This document shows positions 13,136 to 56,926 of a stretch of 64,000 nt of DNA, one piece after another (the stretch's first letter is position 1; the number at the start of each line of letters is the position of its first letter). The position numbers were made by a program, and so were the translations under genes. The DNA comes from Candidatus Acetothermia bacterium (GTDB taxonomy: Bacteria > Bipolaricaulota > Bipolaricaulia > Bipolaricaulales > Bipolaricaulaceae): positions 1 through 64,000 of the forward strand of contig JANLFW010000004.1 of NCBI GenBank assembly GCA_024653305.1, written 5' to 3'. Under the pieces are notes generated by a model. The model saw nothing but the letters and a program-made list of their open reading frames with translations, did not search any database and was not told the DNA's origin.

Positions 13136-14446
13136 ATGCGTAGGACCAAGGTCATCATCATGGGCGCCGCCGGCCGTGACTTTCATAACTTCAACGTTTT
13201 TTTTCGCGATGACGCCGCATATGAGGTGGTGGCGTTCACCGCGACCCAGATCCCGGGCATCGAGGGCCGCCGTTACCCGGCGGAGCTGGCGGGGAAGCTC
13301 TACCCCCACGGCATCCCCATCGAACCGGAAGAGCGGCTTTTCGAGCTCGTGCGGGAACACGGGGTGGAGCGGGTGGTGTTCGCCTACTCCGACGTGTCCC
13401 ACCAGCACGTGATGGAACGGGCGGCGGTGGCAGCCGCGGCCGGGGCCGACTTTTGGCTGATGGGCCCCCGCACCACCCAGCTTGGGGCCAACAAGCCGGT
13501 GGTGGCGGTGTGCGCGGTCCGTACCGGTTGTGGCAAGTCCCAGACCACCCGGCGGGTCGTGGATGTGCTCAGGGGGTGGGGGAAAAGGGTGGTGGTGGTC
13601 CGCCATCCCATGCCCTACGGGGACCTCGCCGCCCAGGCCGTGCAGCGGTTCGCCACGTTCGATGACCTGGACCGGGCGCGGTGCACGATCGAGGAACGGG
13701 AGGAGTACGAGCCCCACCTCCAGCGGGGGACGGTGGTGTACGCGGGGGTGGACTACGCCCGTATCCTCCGGCGGGCGGAGGAGGAGGCAGACGTGATCCT
13801 GTGGGATGGGGGCAACAACGACTTCCCGTTCTACCGCCCGGACCTCCTGATCGTGGTCGCCGATCCCTGGCGGGCCGGACACGAGCGCACCTATTGGCCG
13901 GGGTCGGTGAACATCCGGCAGGCCGACGTGGTGGTGATCAACAAGGTGGACTCGGCGGGGATCGAGGCCATCGAGCGCCTGCGGGCGTCCATCGCCGAGC
14001 TGAACCCGCAGGCCACCGTGATCGAGGCCGCGTCCCCGATCACGGTGGAGGATCCGGAGCTCGTGGCGGGACGGAAGGCCCTGGTGATCGAGGACGGCCC
14101 CACGGTGACCCATGGGGAGATGCCGTTCGGTGCCGGGGCGGTGGCGGCGCGGAAGCTTGGGGCAACCCTGGTCGACCCGCGCCCGTATGCGGTGGGGTCC
14201 ATCGCCGCCGCGTACGCCCTGTACCCCCACCTCGGCCCGGTGCTCCCGGCGATGGGGTACGGCGAGGAGCAAGTGCAGGAGCTGGCGGCGACCATTGCCA
14301 AGGTCCCATGTGAGGTGGTGGTCATCGCCACCCCCATCGACCTGCGGCGCCTGATCCGGCTGGCCACGCCGGCGACCCGGGTCCGGTACGAGCTCCAGGA
14401 GATCGGCCGCCCCACCCTGGCCGACGTGCTCGCCCCCCTCGTGTAG
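13136..14446 (+). CDS. COG2403 GTPase (cyclic 2,3-diphosphoglycerate synthetase-like)
   Basis: The 436-residue protein starts with a Rossmann-like half (VIIMGAAGRDFHNFN, residues 6-20) and carries a P-loop at about residues 127-136 (VRTGCGKSQ), followed by an NKVD-type guanine motif near residue 265. This order is that of COG2403, which includes the cyclic 2,3-diphosphoglycerate synthetase of methanogens and many uncharacterised bacterial homologues. The bacterial function is not established. A TATAAT -10 (13093-13098) and the Shine-Dalgarno GAGGTGAT precede the ATG, so this gene has a short leader, unlike its divergent neighbour. It appears to be monocistronic. Confidence 0.82.
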   Translation: MRRTKVIIMGAAGRDFHNFNVFFRDDAAYEVVAFTATQIPGIEGRRYPAELAGKLYPHGIPIEPEERLFELVREHGVERVVFAYSDVSHQHVMERAAVAAAAGADFWLMGPRTTQLGANKPVVAVCAVRTGCGKSQTTRRVVDVLRGWGKRVVVVRHPMPYGDLAAQAVQRFATFDDLDRARCTIEEREEYEPHLQRGTVVYAGVDYARILRRAEEEADVILWDGGNNDFPFYRPDLLIVVADPWRAGHERTYWPGSVNIRQADVVVINKVDSAGIEAIERLRASIAELNPQATVIEAASPITVEDPELVAGRKALVIEDGPTVTHGEMPFGAGAVAARKLGATLVDPRPYAVGSIAAAYALYPHLGPVLPAMGYGEEQVQELAATIAKVPCEVVVIATPIDLRRLIRLATPATRVRYELQEIGRPTLADVLAPLV

Positions 14447-14546: not shown

Positions 14547-15458
14547 ATGAGAACGCAAGCGTGGGGTGGACTGATCCTGGCGGTGATGCTGGGGATTGCC
14601 GCAGTGGGCCAAGGCACCACCCTCGCCGGCGTGTTCGGGATCGAACTCACCTTCACCCCGGTCCCGCCGGCGACCCTGGAGGTGGACACGGCCATCGTCC
14701 TGTCCCTGTCGTTCGCTGGGGCGGAGGTCACCAGCCGAACCCAGCTCTCCCTGGATGGGCTGGTGGCTGAGCACATCACGATGGGGGTGAATCTAGACGG
14801 GATCGTGCTCCGCACCGGGATGCGCTTCGATCCCTGCTTCTCCCTGTACTGGTTCGAGGTCCGCGGCGGATGTTGCCCGTTGGACCTGGGAGCCCTGTTC
14901 CTGGTGGAGAACCTGGCGGATGCCTGCCAGACCCCGGACTACACCATCGGCATCGTCCTCGACCTGGGCGTGCGCACCGATCTCGGGCTCGTCGTGCGCA
15001 GCCTCACCGGATTCGGCGTGATCGACCTCTACCACCTGATCGACGATGACCCGGCCACCGTCCTCACCGCCGTGCCCGGATGGTGGTTCGAGGAAGAGCT
15101 GGTGTCCCTGAGCTTCACGACCTCGTGCTTCCGCGCGGACTCGGTGTTGCTGTTCGACCCTGTGGGGTTCGCGTGGGGCCAGTTCGTCGCCGCATACCGG
15201 TTCCCATCGCCGGAAGTGGAGATGGGGGCTGGGGTCCAGCTAGACGCCGGGCTCGCCCTGGATTGGGCCGAGCTCTTCCTCGGCCTCGCCATCGACCCAG
15301 CGACGCTCAGGTCCACGACCACGTTCGACCTCCTCGGGTTCGTCGCCCAGGAGGTGGAGGTGAGCGTGGCCTTCTCCGGGGTTCGCCTCTACTCCCGGAC
15401 CCGGTTCGACTTCACCGGGCTCCTCCAGGAAGTGATCGGGTTCACGCTCACCTTCTGA
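14547..15458 (+). CDS. Secreted beta-rich protein, putative outer-membrane barrel
   Basis: The 303-residue protein has a signal peptide (hydrophobic stretch about 8-21, likely cut after VGQG). It consists of alternating hydrophobic/polar segments typical of beta strands. It ends in GFTLTF, the aromatic-terminated last strand recognised by the outer-membrane assembly machinery. Cys residues occur in the middle (PCFS, GGCCPL and ADACQ, about residues 90-130), and similar pairs occur in the broken gene at 55770-56926. A good Shine-Dalgarno (GGAGGG) precedes the ATG. I do not recognise the family. The barrel call is inferred from strand pattern, signal and terminal Phe. Confidence 0.6.
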   Translation: MRTQAWGGLILAVMLGIAAVGQGTTLAGVFGIELTFTPVPPATLEVDTAIVLSLSFAGAEVTSRTQLSLDGLVAEHITMGVNLDGIVLRTGMRFDPCFSLYWFEVRGGCCPLDLGALFLVENLADACQTPDYTIGIVLDLGVRTDLGLVVRSLTGFGVIDLYHLIDDDPATVLTAVPGWWFEEELVSLSFTTSCFRADSVLLFDPVGFAWGQFVAAYRFPSPEVEMGAGVQLDAGLALDWAELFLGLAIDPATLRSTTTFDLLGFVAQEVEVSVAFSGVRLYSRTRFDFTGLLQEVIGFTLTF

Positions 15459-15493: not shown

Positions 15494-16573
15494 CTATGGG
15501 GTCCCGGGCCACAGGAGTTCGTCCCCGTACCGCAGCCGCCACTGGGCAAGGCCACCGATGAGGCCACGTGCCAGGGGAAACCCGTTGGACCACAGGTACT
15601 GAGCGGCCTGGACGGCTGAGGTCCCATCCTCGTCCAGGCACCAAATGGCGACCCCGCCCCCAGCCGAGAGGGCCGACCTAGGCGGCAGTGCGGCCGCCCA
15701 CGCCGCGAGCACGTCCAAGGTAGGTCGAGGCAGGTTCACCGCCCCCGGGAAGTGGCCCTGGGCGAACGCCTGCGGGTCGCGCAGGTCGAGGAGGACCAGG
15801 TACTTCTGGGCGACCTGACCGGCGGAGACCGGGTTCCCCCCGTAGTACGGGATCCCGCTGGGCAGGGTCTGGGGTGCCCCTTGTGCCCACACGAAGAACA
15901 GGCCCCCCAGCTCTTGCCACCACCCGACGAGTCCCCCGGCCACGGCCCGGGCCGCAAACCCCTGGTCCATCAACCATTGCGCGGCCTGGGCGGCCGCAGC
16001 CCCTGTCTCGTCGTAGAAGTAGATGTAGGGCCACCGCGGCAGCCGCGGGATCCAGCTCCCAAGCTCGGCGAACGGGATGTTGATCGCTCCCAGGAGGTGC
16101 CCTTGGGCGAACGCCTGGGCGTCCCGAAGGTCCACGAGGAGGTAGTAGTTCCTGTGGTCGTGGAGGCCGACGGCCGATCCCTCGAACGGCTGGGCCGGCC
16201 GCACGAACCCTTGGATGGTCAGGGTCTGCGTCTGAGCCTGCGGGTCGTCGGAGTACACGGTGAGCGAACGCTTGACCGACTGCCCCCCGTATCCGGTGGA
16301 CTCGAAATGGACGGTGAGCTCCGCCTGTTCTCCCGGCAAGAGCACCGTCTTCGTAAGCAACACGGAGGTGCAGCCGCAGGTCCGGGAGGGCGGCTGGGTG
16401 AAGTTGAGCGGGGCGTCCCCCACGTTGCGGAGGACGTACACGTGCTGGACCAGCATCCCCTCGGGCACCTGGCCGAAATCGTACACCGGTTGGTCCACCA
16501 CCAACCTCGGCCCGGCCCAACCGCCAAGAGCCACGAGCGCAACCAGCACCAAAGACAGGATCCACTGCTTCAT
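15494..16573 (-). CDS. Secreted DUF1573 protein with two rhodanese domains
   Basis: The 359-residue protein has a signal peptide (1-20) and a DUF1573 immunoglobulin-like domain (about 25-125) with the YDFGQVPEG motif and a CGC pair (residues 66-68). Two rhodanese domains follow (about 140-235 and 250-350). Both keep the DLRD..AFAQGH entry motif. The second has a Cys at the catalytic position (C312 in WCLDEDG), while the first has Phe (F186). Rhodaneses move sulfane sulfur or sense redox state, and here they would lie outside the cytoplasm. One domain is probably structural. A -10 TATCAT lies at 16605-16600. Confidence 0.85.
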   Translation of the reverse strand: MKQWILSLVLVALVALGGWAGPRLVVDQPVYDFGQVPEGMLVQHVYVLRNVGDAPLNFTQPPSRTCGCTSVLLTKTVLLPGEQAELTVHFESTGYGGQSVKRSLTVYSDDPQAQTQTLTIQGFVRPAQPFEGSAVGLHDHRNYYLLVDLRDAQAFAQGHLLGAINIPFAELGSWIPRLPRWPYIYFYDETGAAAAQAAQWLMDQGFAARAVAGGLVGWWQELGGLFFVWAQGAPQTLPSGIPYYGGNPVSAGQVAQKYLVLLDLRDPQAFAQGHFPGAVNLPRPTLDVLAAWAAALPPRSALSAGGGVAIWCLDEDGTSAVQAAQYLWSNGFPLARGLIGGLAQWRLRYGDELLWPGTP

Positions 16574-55442: not shown

Positions 55443-55757
55443 TCAGTACACGACCGGACCACCCGGGCCGGTGAACAGGCCGAAGATGGGATCGGGTGTG
55501 TTCTCCCACCAGTCGGGCCACCCCCAAGACGGGCAGAAGCCGCCCGCGGGCACCGTGTACGGCCCGTACACCTCGGTGACCCCGTTCTGGACCACGGTGA
55601 CCGTCGCGTGGGCTCCGACCACGGGCGAGCCGGCCCCGGCGTCCACCACGTACCCTTCGATCACCCCGGTGGGCACGGCGGGGATGAAGAGACGCCCGGA
55701 GAGGGTCAGGATCCCGAGGATCACCCCGCCCAAGATCGCCGTGTTCCAACGCGTCAT
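55443..55757 (-). CDS. Small exported protein with carboxypeptidase-regulatory-like fold
   Basis: The 104-residue protein has one hydrophobic N-terminal segment (about 7-27), a signal or anchor. After it comes GVIEGYVVDAGAGSPVVGAHATVTV, the pattern of a carboxypeptidase regulatory-like beta-sandwich. The end is rich in Gly, Pro and Trp (SWGWPDWWE). It starts 12 nt after the broken barrel gene and is followed by a terminator, so the two are co-transcribed. Function unknown; an accessory role at the cell surface is a guess. Confidence 0.6.
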   Translation of the reverse strand: MTRWNTAILGGVILGILTLSGRLFIPAVPTGVIEGYVVDAGAGSPVVGAHATVTVVQNGVTEVYGPYTVPAGGFCPSWGWPDWWENTPDPIFGLFTGPGGPVVY

Positions 55758-55769
55758 TGGCCCACCTCC

Positions 55770-56926
55770 CTAGAACGTGAGCACCCAGCCCACGCTGAGG
55801 CCCATGTCCCCACCCACCTCAGCGGTGAATGAAGTGGTCACCGTGAGGTTCTGCAGGACGGGGACCGCCGCCTCGGCCACAAACCGGGACAGCCCGAACA
55901 GGGTGCCCGCGGGCTTGAAGTACAGGCCAACATCCAGGGAGTACCGACCACCGCAGCAGCCCGGACCACAGAACCCAAGCTTCAGGTACTCGAACTCGCC
56001 GTCCTCACGCACGTCCTCATCCAAGATCTCCTCGACCTTGGCCACGTTGAATGCGGTCAGGAACTCGGCGTAGCCGCACCCCCCAAGCTCACAGCGGGCC
56101 TTGAACCCGTAGATCTCCAGGCCCCGCCAGGTGTGGTCCGTGAACACCGCGTCCCCGTACACCTGGAAGCACGCCTCCCCAACGCCCTCCCACTTGGGCT
56201 CAACCGCCACCGTCTTGCCGATGGTGGTGAACTTGGCGGAGGCGTCGAAGCTGATCCCGCAGCAGATGGGAAAGCCACGCGCCACCACCTCGAGGTAGTC
56301 GAACCCTTCCTCCTTGGTGAACGCAAACCCCAGGTCGAGGGTCACCCCGCACCAGAACGGAACTTCCTCCGCCGTGAGCTCGGCGTAGGTGAACTGGAAC
56401 CCACCCGGGAACGGGTCCACGGGGAAGGTCTTCTCGTAGGCGCCCAGACAGGAGATCACGCAGTCCTGGAGGCGGGCCCCGATCCCCACCACGGCCCCCA
56501 CCGTAAACCCGCCGAGGTCGCGTTCCGCCGCGACCACCATCCCACCCGCCGGCCCCCCGAAGTACCCGGGGATGGTAGGGCCCACCATCGCCGAATAGAA
56601 ACTGAAGTCCGTGCCGGCGATGGGGAGGGTTACCTGGCCCAAGGAGTACAGGAAGGCCGGGGCCCAAAGAGGAGGGTCCACTCCACCGTAGCCGAGGCCA
56701 GCATGCCCGCCACATCCAGGCTCTGCCACACCCAGCCGTCGGACCCGAACCACTCCCCCTTCCCCCCACCCGCCAGCCCGCCACCGTCCCGCTCAGCTCA
56801 AGTGCGGTGGAGGCCAGGCCCAAGCTGGGAAGGAGATCCACTGTGCCCGACCAGGTCCCGCTCACCCCTTGGCCCACCACGGCACCGGAAAACGCCGATA
56901 TCAAAAGGAATTGTCCCTTTGCGCAT
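55770..56926 (-). pseudogene. Secreted Cys-containing putative outer-membrane barrel gene with three frameshifts
   Basis: The ATG at 56926 has a strong Shine-Dalgarno (GGGGAGG). Coding then jumps frames. One extra base in the run at 56915-56917 gives a signal peptide reading GQFLLISAFSGAVVGQG, then GTWSGTVDLLPSLGL. One base is missing near 56754-56767, after which the frame reads EWFGSDGWVWQSLDVAG. One more is missing near 56655-56664, entering the final frame from AFLYSLGQVTLP to GWVLTF. The product would be about 385 residues, beta-rich, with Cys pairs (CCG, CGPGCCGG) and a terminal Phe, resembling the protein at 14547. The shifts lie in C/G runs. A 243-nt gap to 57170 holds only the promoter of the next gene. 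Confidence 0.7.

Follow-up and report, generated by a model that had tools for sequence, protein, structure and literature searches.

The window analyzed here, a stretch of 64,000 nucleotides from a Candidatus Acetothermia bacterium of the phylum Bipolaricaulota, contains a gene (14547-15458, forward strand) for a secreted, cysteine-bearing protein that ends in an aromatic residue. The locus raises the question of whether this protein, referred to as protein 1, is an outer-membrane beta-barrel, and how it is related to a second, similar-looking protein (protein 2) encoded in the same window. The cell envelope of the Bipolaricaulota is poorly known. In its passages on the envelope, an earlier study of a phylum member left undecided whether the cells are mono- or diderm and suggested a simple outer membrane of the Thermotoga type; it named a surface antigen of the outer membrane and a permease, and reported no lipopolysaccharide genes (Hao et al., 2018; PMC6092417). 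A 2023 paper, in the part of its text concerned with the envelope, takes an outer membrane for granted and describes it as detached at the poles (PMC10665443). According to the analysis presented here, the most likely product of the gene is a hitherto undescribed barrel protein of the outer membrane of this little-known, mostly uncultured phylum.

Protein 1 belongs to a conserved family of secreted proteins

The gene starts with ATG and has an open frame of 303 aa including five cysteines. By inspection, approximately residues 1-21 (MRTQAWGGLILAVMLGIAAVGQ; 14547-14609, forward strand) form a Sec signal peptide, and the protein ends in the strand VIGFTLTF (15432-15455, forward strand), which fits the BAM beta-signal pattern. 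The first-pass annotation had described an open frame, a signal peptide, strand periodicity, cysteines and a final G..L.F strand, and all of these features were recovered. A highly conserved segment of pattern RSLTGFGV..LIDDDP.T...VPGWWFEEELV (14997-15107, forward strand), mostly non-strand according to low-confidence predicted secondary structure, is a candidate constriction loop.

Relatives of protein 1, designated family 1, were detected at E <= 0.01 in 47 of 60 phylum genomes, including the genome from which the window originates. Within its own taxonomic family (f1), 35 of 37 genomes had a match (own genome included), and the search of the phylum genomes yielded a single strong match per genome. 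A family-1 profile search was positive in 76 of 100 phylum genomes, among family f1 in 37 of 40. The closest named relative, from a Bipolaricaulaceae MAG, is 95% identical over the full length. Among the 33 family-1 loci, 29 were distinct (L003/L032, L004/L034, L007/L033 and L014/L035 are duplicated contigs), and the fragment L028 was left out of the alignment, the alternation score and the cysteine counts. Searches against Pfam (protein 1 and 29 family-1 members), NCBIfam and PDB sequences gave no convincing match. Only weak hits (ADH_N, DUF3996, DUF7349, PRK05105, PagF) were returned, and each family hit concerned one member alone, in agreement with the earlier statement that no described family could be recognized. 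Relatives of family 1, and also of the second family described below, were not found among the viral contigs searched.

The genomic context of family 1 is similarly conserved. A GTPase-like (P-loop) gene, located at 13136-14446 (forward strand) in the window, is the immediate upstream neighbor of the family-1 gene, with the same orientation, in 28 of the 29 distinct loci; the remaining locus is cut by a contig end. Its product matches the Pfam CobW domain just above the cut-off (21.4 bits vs. 20.7) and appears to be related to cyclic 2,3-diphosphoglycerate synthase. On the other side, a convergent gene (15494-16573, reverse strand) encodes a DUF1573-type domain fused to rhodanese domains, and a gene of this type also adjoins family 1 in six more loci (L015, L021, L022, L023, L025, L027).

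Strand alternation, terminal motif and a low-confidence structure model point to a probable outer-membrane barrel

Hydrophobic alternation was scored as z against local shuffles. Protein 1 and the in-frame part of protein 2 both reached a z of 3.9, and high values were found throughout family 1 (median 3.3, minimum 2.1, n=29) and the family of protein 2, family 2 (median 4.1, minimum 2.7, n=27). The C-terminal 330 residues of the putative BamA proteins of the phylum yielded a median of 3.2 (range 1.5-6.0, n=29), and 24 other window proteins, hand-picked as controls from 52 coding-like window ORFs, a median of -0.6 with a maximum of 1.6. The terminal motif G..[hydrophobic].[FWY] occurred in 28 of 30 family-1 and in 30 of 30 family-2 loci (best-scoring loci in each case). 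Among the 52 coding-like ORFs of the window it was restricted to proteins 1 and 2 and one ORF of 104 aa.

Omp85/BamA (PF01103) was identified in 55 of the 60 genomes, with no match in the other five, and TamB was matched in none of the 60. The own genome is among those encoding BamA (G000:C8, C-terminus FEFGMSPMF), as the first-pass annotation, which had suggested to search for it, would lead one to expect. The presence of BamA, the terminal motif and the BamA-like alternation thus support the earlier proposal of an outer membrane and a BAM-like insertion. Families 1 and 2 share this alternation and the terminal aromatic strand with the Omp85/BamA barrels; however, protein 1 itself gave no match to PF01103 and is not a member of the Omp85/BamA group of barrels with POTRA domains.

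A structure model of protein 1, computed from five-sequence input, was a 17-strand beta-meander of low confidence (mean pLDDT 49, pTM 0.48). Foldseek searches with this low-confidence model had a best E of 0.007, with none at or below 0.001; the top 20 rows were membrane beta-barrels, and soluble proteins accounted for 5 of the 50 matches listed. In VIA-align, 48 of the 50 matches listed were membrane barrels (porins, OmpG, VDAC, TamA, BamA), at VIA Z values of at most 6.8, a range in which, according to the tool, only a common arrangement may be shared and which is insufficient alone. Residues 170-282 of the low-confidence model were superposed on the C-terminal strands of porins. The model of protein 2, obtained from a single sequence, was uninformative (pLDDT 33) and too poor for a fold search, so that structure prediction, which had been proposed for both proteins, hinted at membrane barrels, at low confidence, for protein 1 only.

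Within family 1, an internal hairpin repeat was observed (mature residues 27-73 vs. 220-266, E 2e-5). Of 12 distant orthologues, 11 matched a C-terminal segment of the profile twice, suggesting that the proteins have grown by hairpin duplication. According to the mechanism that we propose, protein 1 would be exported by Sec, its C-terminal G-x-x-L-x-F strand would serve as recognition signal, and BamA would insert a barrel of about 16-18 strands, built from repeated beta-hairpins, which would probably act as a porin-like channel.

The two window proteins are distantly related

Protein 2 had been described as the reconstructed product of 55770-56926. The gene does not form one frame in the window: the in-frame C-terminal part (55770-56753, reverse strand) ends in LSVGWVLTF, and the frame is broken upstream, to about 56926. 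An intact copy with an open frame of 406 codons is present in a genome of the same genus. Family 2 was found in 43 of the 60 genomes, including 36 of the 37 of family f1, and is multi-copy; the own genome alone has eight matches. In full-length members, the signal peptide typically precedes a 'LSGSW...LLP' segment, and the C-terminus is similar to 'GWTFTF'. The conservation of families 1 and 2 across genomes indicates that both window genes are real. Three family-2 loci without a recognized signal peptide (L036, L038, L065) were left out of the profile comparison and the alternation score.

Whether the two families are related depended on the part of family 2 that was compared. Without the family-2 N-terminus, hhalign found no relation (probability 0.8%). 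With the N-terminus included, the first 70 mature residues were aligned in register (E 7e-4, probability 27%), and the C-terminal repeat of family 1 aligned to the N-terminus of family 2 (E 9e-4). Using gap-trimmed alignments, family 1 vs. family 2 scored 36.1, compared to 22.1 for the reversed alignment and to a mean of 16.8 and a maximum of 30.7 for 150 parity-keeping shuffles. In addition, among the ORFs searched, the family-1 HMM matched one of the family-2 type (E 5e-6). A bridge was provided by seven barrels of taxonomic family f3 that are encoded next to genes for SLH domains, as these matched each of the two families (family 1 with a probability of 91%, E 1e-6; family 2 with 96%, E 5e-9). 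The profile of the phylum's BamA barrels matched neither family 1 nor family 2 nor the f3 barrels (hhalign, 0.2-0.3%), which indicates a relation beyond the generic barrel pattern. On this profile evidence, the window proteins 1 and 2 are distant members of one phylum-wide superfamily of putative barrels, a link that appeared only after the family-2 N-terminus and the f3 barrels had been added. The relation presumed in the first-pass annotation therefore exists at a distance, but is not detectable in the comparison lacking the N-terminus. With BamA encoded in the own genome and the two proteins distantly related, neither of the conditions named in that annotation as refuting its proposal holds.

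Two candidates from the searches were discarded: a weak hit in the own genome (C23:13886) is by eye a thioredoxin-like ORF, and a 3283-aa stop-to-stop frame in G005, at first a potential giant barrel, by eye joins two distinct genes, one adhesin-like and one for a barrel. A secreted-looking ORF of 104 aa (55443-55757, reverse strand) is located directly downstream of the broken family-2 gene of the window; it ends in GPGGPVVY and has no Pfam match.

The five cysteines of protein 1 are clade-specific

The five cysteines of protein 1 are Cys97 in an FDPCFS turn (14835-14837), the pair Cys109-Cys110 in GGCCP (14871-14876), Cys127 in CQTP (14925-14927) and Cys194 (15126-15128), all on the forward strand. 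Among 29 members from family f1, they are present in 29, 27, 29, 29 and 27, respectively. In 12 distant orthologues from families f2, f7 and f8, taken from the 39 non-f1 genomes with a match to the family-1 profile, none of the five columns holds a cysteine, the column of Cys127 being a gap, and the surrounding strands align. Two of these 12 have a cysteine one residue from the column of Cys194, and most carry cysteines elsewhere. The absence of cysteine from these columns in the distant orthologues implies that the five cysteines are dispensable for the fold and have been gained or lost roughly as a set; they would then represent a local stabilizer or a ligand site on a pre-existing fold rather than a part of the fold itself. 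In family 2, nine columns with a cysteine in the first sequence are conserved in 28-30 of the 30 members. The paired cysteines that had been noted in both window proteins do occur in the sense that both proteins bear cysteines, but in the alignments the columns of the two families lie at non-equivalent positions, indicating a resemblance rather than a common motif.

There is an almost even chance that the cysteines form disulfides that brace neighboring loops of the barrel, e.g., between Cys97 and Cys127. The set is conserved in a nearly all-or-nothing manner, and in the low-confidence model Cys97 and Cys127 are positioned in loops of neighboring hairpins on the same side, with Cys109-Cys110 and Cys194 on the other. 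Against disulfides, Cys109 is replaced in two of the 29 members and Cys194 in another two, each without the other. In addition, neither VKOR nor DsbB was found in any of the 37 f1 genomes (6 and 2 of the 60 genomes overall, respectively; many of the genomes are incomplete). DsbA-type domains were detected in 7 of the 37, with two of these hits scoring below the cut-off; the own genome had none. The lack of VKOR and DsbB matches leaves room for metal binding or free thiols. Coordination of a metal (ion or cluster) by the cysteines at the rim of the barrel, with a role in metal uptake or sensing together with the CobW-like neighbor, would also be consistent with the three invariant cysteines and the two conserved in 27 of 29, and the CobW-type group, to which the domain of the constant neighbor scores, includes metal chaperones. 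We consider this reading less likely, as the CobW match is marginal and the neighbor appears to be related to cyclic 2,3-diphosphoglycerate synthase, and as the cysteines are distributed to both sides of the barrel in the weak model.

We found no literature on disulfides in outer-membrane beta-barrels of Acetothermia. Among the 60 genomes, VKOR is confined to families f3 and f4 and DsbB to f6 and f8, and the disulfide machinery appears to be patchy in the phylum.

Superfamily barrels are often encoded near putative SLH tether genes

An SLH domain was identified in 38 of the 60 genomes, with no match in the other 22. All 39 SLH loci were compared with 35 BamA loci from 35 of the same 38 genomes; no control locus was available for the remaining three, in which Omp85 was not matched. 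A superfamily barrel (E <= 0.01) was present within about 5 kb of 18 of the 39 SLH loci and of none of the 35 BamA loci (Fisher P 9e-7). In 13 of the 39 loci, which belong to families f1, f2, f3 and f5 and include the own genome, the barrel starts less than 400 bp past the stop of the SLH gene on the same strand. No superfamily barrel start was found within 400 bp downstream in the other 26, some of which are cut by contig ends; two of these have an ORF missed by the HMM, with a signal peptide and ending in the terminal motif, at 111 bp (G055) and 416 bp (G054).

The SLH proteins are short. Their stop-to-stop frames comprise 166-283 codons in 35 of the 39 loci, and in 38 of the 39 the C-terminus is a hydrophobic helix (mean hydropathy over 18 residues >= 1.9). 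The SLH protein of the own genome consists of a signal peptide, an SLH domain (Pfam 23.9 bits vs. a cut-off of 20.8), a heptad stalk of about 55 residues, in which the hydrophobic fraction is 0.87 at the a/d positions and 0.25 elsewhere, and a C-terminal helix. In the proposed mechanism, the SLH domain would grip the cell wall and the C-terminal helix would be embedded in the outer membrane at the side of the barrel, so that the two proteins would probably act like OmpA (Omp-alpha) and OmpB (Omp-beta) of Thermotoga. This would apply to the superfamily barrels elsewhere, since the family-1 gene of the window is not adjacent to an SLH gene and has the GTPase-like gene as its constant neighbor.

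A more far-reaching proposal, in which a split, miniature SLH tether would hold the outer membrane together with private, hairpin-duplicating barrels and, in one taxonomic family whose genomes have no known disulfide oxidase, thiols acquired as a set would stay reduced and bind metal at the rim, appears rather improbable. It is also improbable that protein 1 is a secreted or surface-attached soluble beta-protein, i.e., a beta-sandwich or beta-solenoid with an incidental terminal Phe: such a protein would agree with the low confidence of the model, the few soluble proteins among the Foldseek matches listed, the fact that soluble beta-sheets alternate too, and the N-terminal InlB B-repeat, a domain typical of surface proteins, of one family-2 paralogue in the own genome, but not with the terminal aromatic motif in 58 of the 60 best-scoring loci, the alternation like that of BamA barrels, the membrane barrels as top fold matches and the relatives adjoining an SLH tether gene. 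We consider it quite likely that protein 1 is a BamA-inserted outer-membrane beta-barrel of the Bipolaricaulota, probably porin-like, and that it belongs to a superfamily whose members beside SLH genes would probably work in a Thermotoga-like manner.

Comparison with known tether and porin systems

The phylum's SLH proteins resemble OmpA1 (Omp-alpha) of the Thermotogales in combining an SLH domain, a coiled coil and a C-terminal hydrophobic helix in one chain, as far as the latter is described in the relevant parts of PMC3387000 and PMC9388160. According to PMC3387000 and a figure legend in PMC9388160, the Thermotoga ompA1 gene adjoins ompB in the same direction, apparently in one operon. The superfamily barrels likewise resemble OmpB (Omp-beta), as outlined in these sources, as beta-proteins with a signal peptide and an aromatic end encoded downstream on the same strand, a likeness of architecture and gene order. 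The differences are that the stalk is short in the phylum, as in the own protein, and that the barrels are paralogous, often cysteine-rich and just downstream in only 13 of the 39 loci; the window gene itself differs from ompB in not being downstream of a gene for an SLH/coiled-coil/TM anchor. Coupling of an SLH tether to an outer-membrane beta-barrel is also a feature of the OmpM/SlpA-like SLH porins of diderm Terrabacteria, as presented in the sections of PMC10628300 and PMC9388160 on these proteins, and OmpM1 chains were among the weak Foldseek rows obtained for protein 1. However, OmpM as described there unites SLH domain and barrel in one polypeptide, whereas in the Bipolaricaulota each has its own gene, and an SLH domain is absent from the window barrel.

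No published description of porins or barrels of Bipolaricaulota or Acetothermia was found, judging by titles and the beginnings of abstracts. Family 1 is a new family of predicted barrels, and the superfamily would represent a new variant of the arrangement of a split SLH tether and a porin. The SLH genes beside some of the barrels point to a tether divided between two proteins, as in the Thermotoga toga. Together, the barrel superfamily, BamA and the SLH gene make the question of the envelope testable, and the superfamily supplies candidate outer-membrane marker genes for the phylum.

Further observations on SLH and family-2 loci

At G000:C12:25188-28816 (L105:1589-5217, minus strand), two family-2 barrels lie in tandem about 0.4 kb downstream of the SLH/coiled-coil/helix gene of the own genome; no other arrangement in this genome comes as close to an Omp-alpha/Omp-beta gene pair. 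Tandem arrays of two to three barrel ORFs, of 367-570 codons and in some cases truncated by the limits of the stretch, follow the SLH gene in the f3 loci L095, L098 and L103. In one genus (g5; L099, L106, L108, L109, L115, L117, L118), the gene after the SLH gene is by eye an apparent secA, and in four of these loci (L099, L109, L115, L117) a family-2 barrel is located upstream of the SLH gene on the opposite strand.

Two family-2 barrels (L071:522-1955 and L073:106-1611) carry an extra N-terminal domain, which is an InlB B-repeat (Pfam) in L071 and cadherin-like by eye in L073. Finally, in two genera a protein with, by eye, CARDB-/PKD-like repeats adjoins family-2 paralogues (L078:6692-11608 and L070:1-2043); it also contains a subtilase-like domain in L078, and the L070 stretch covers its end alone.
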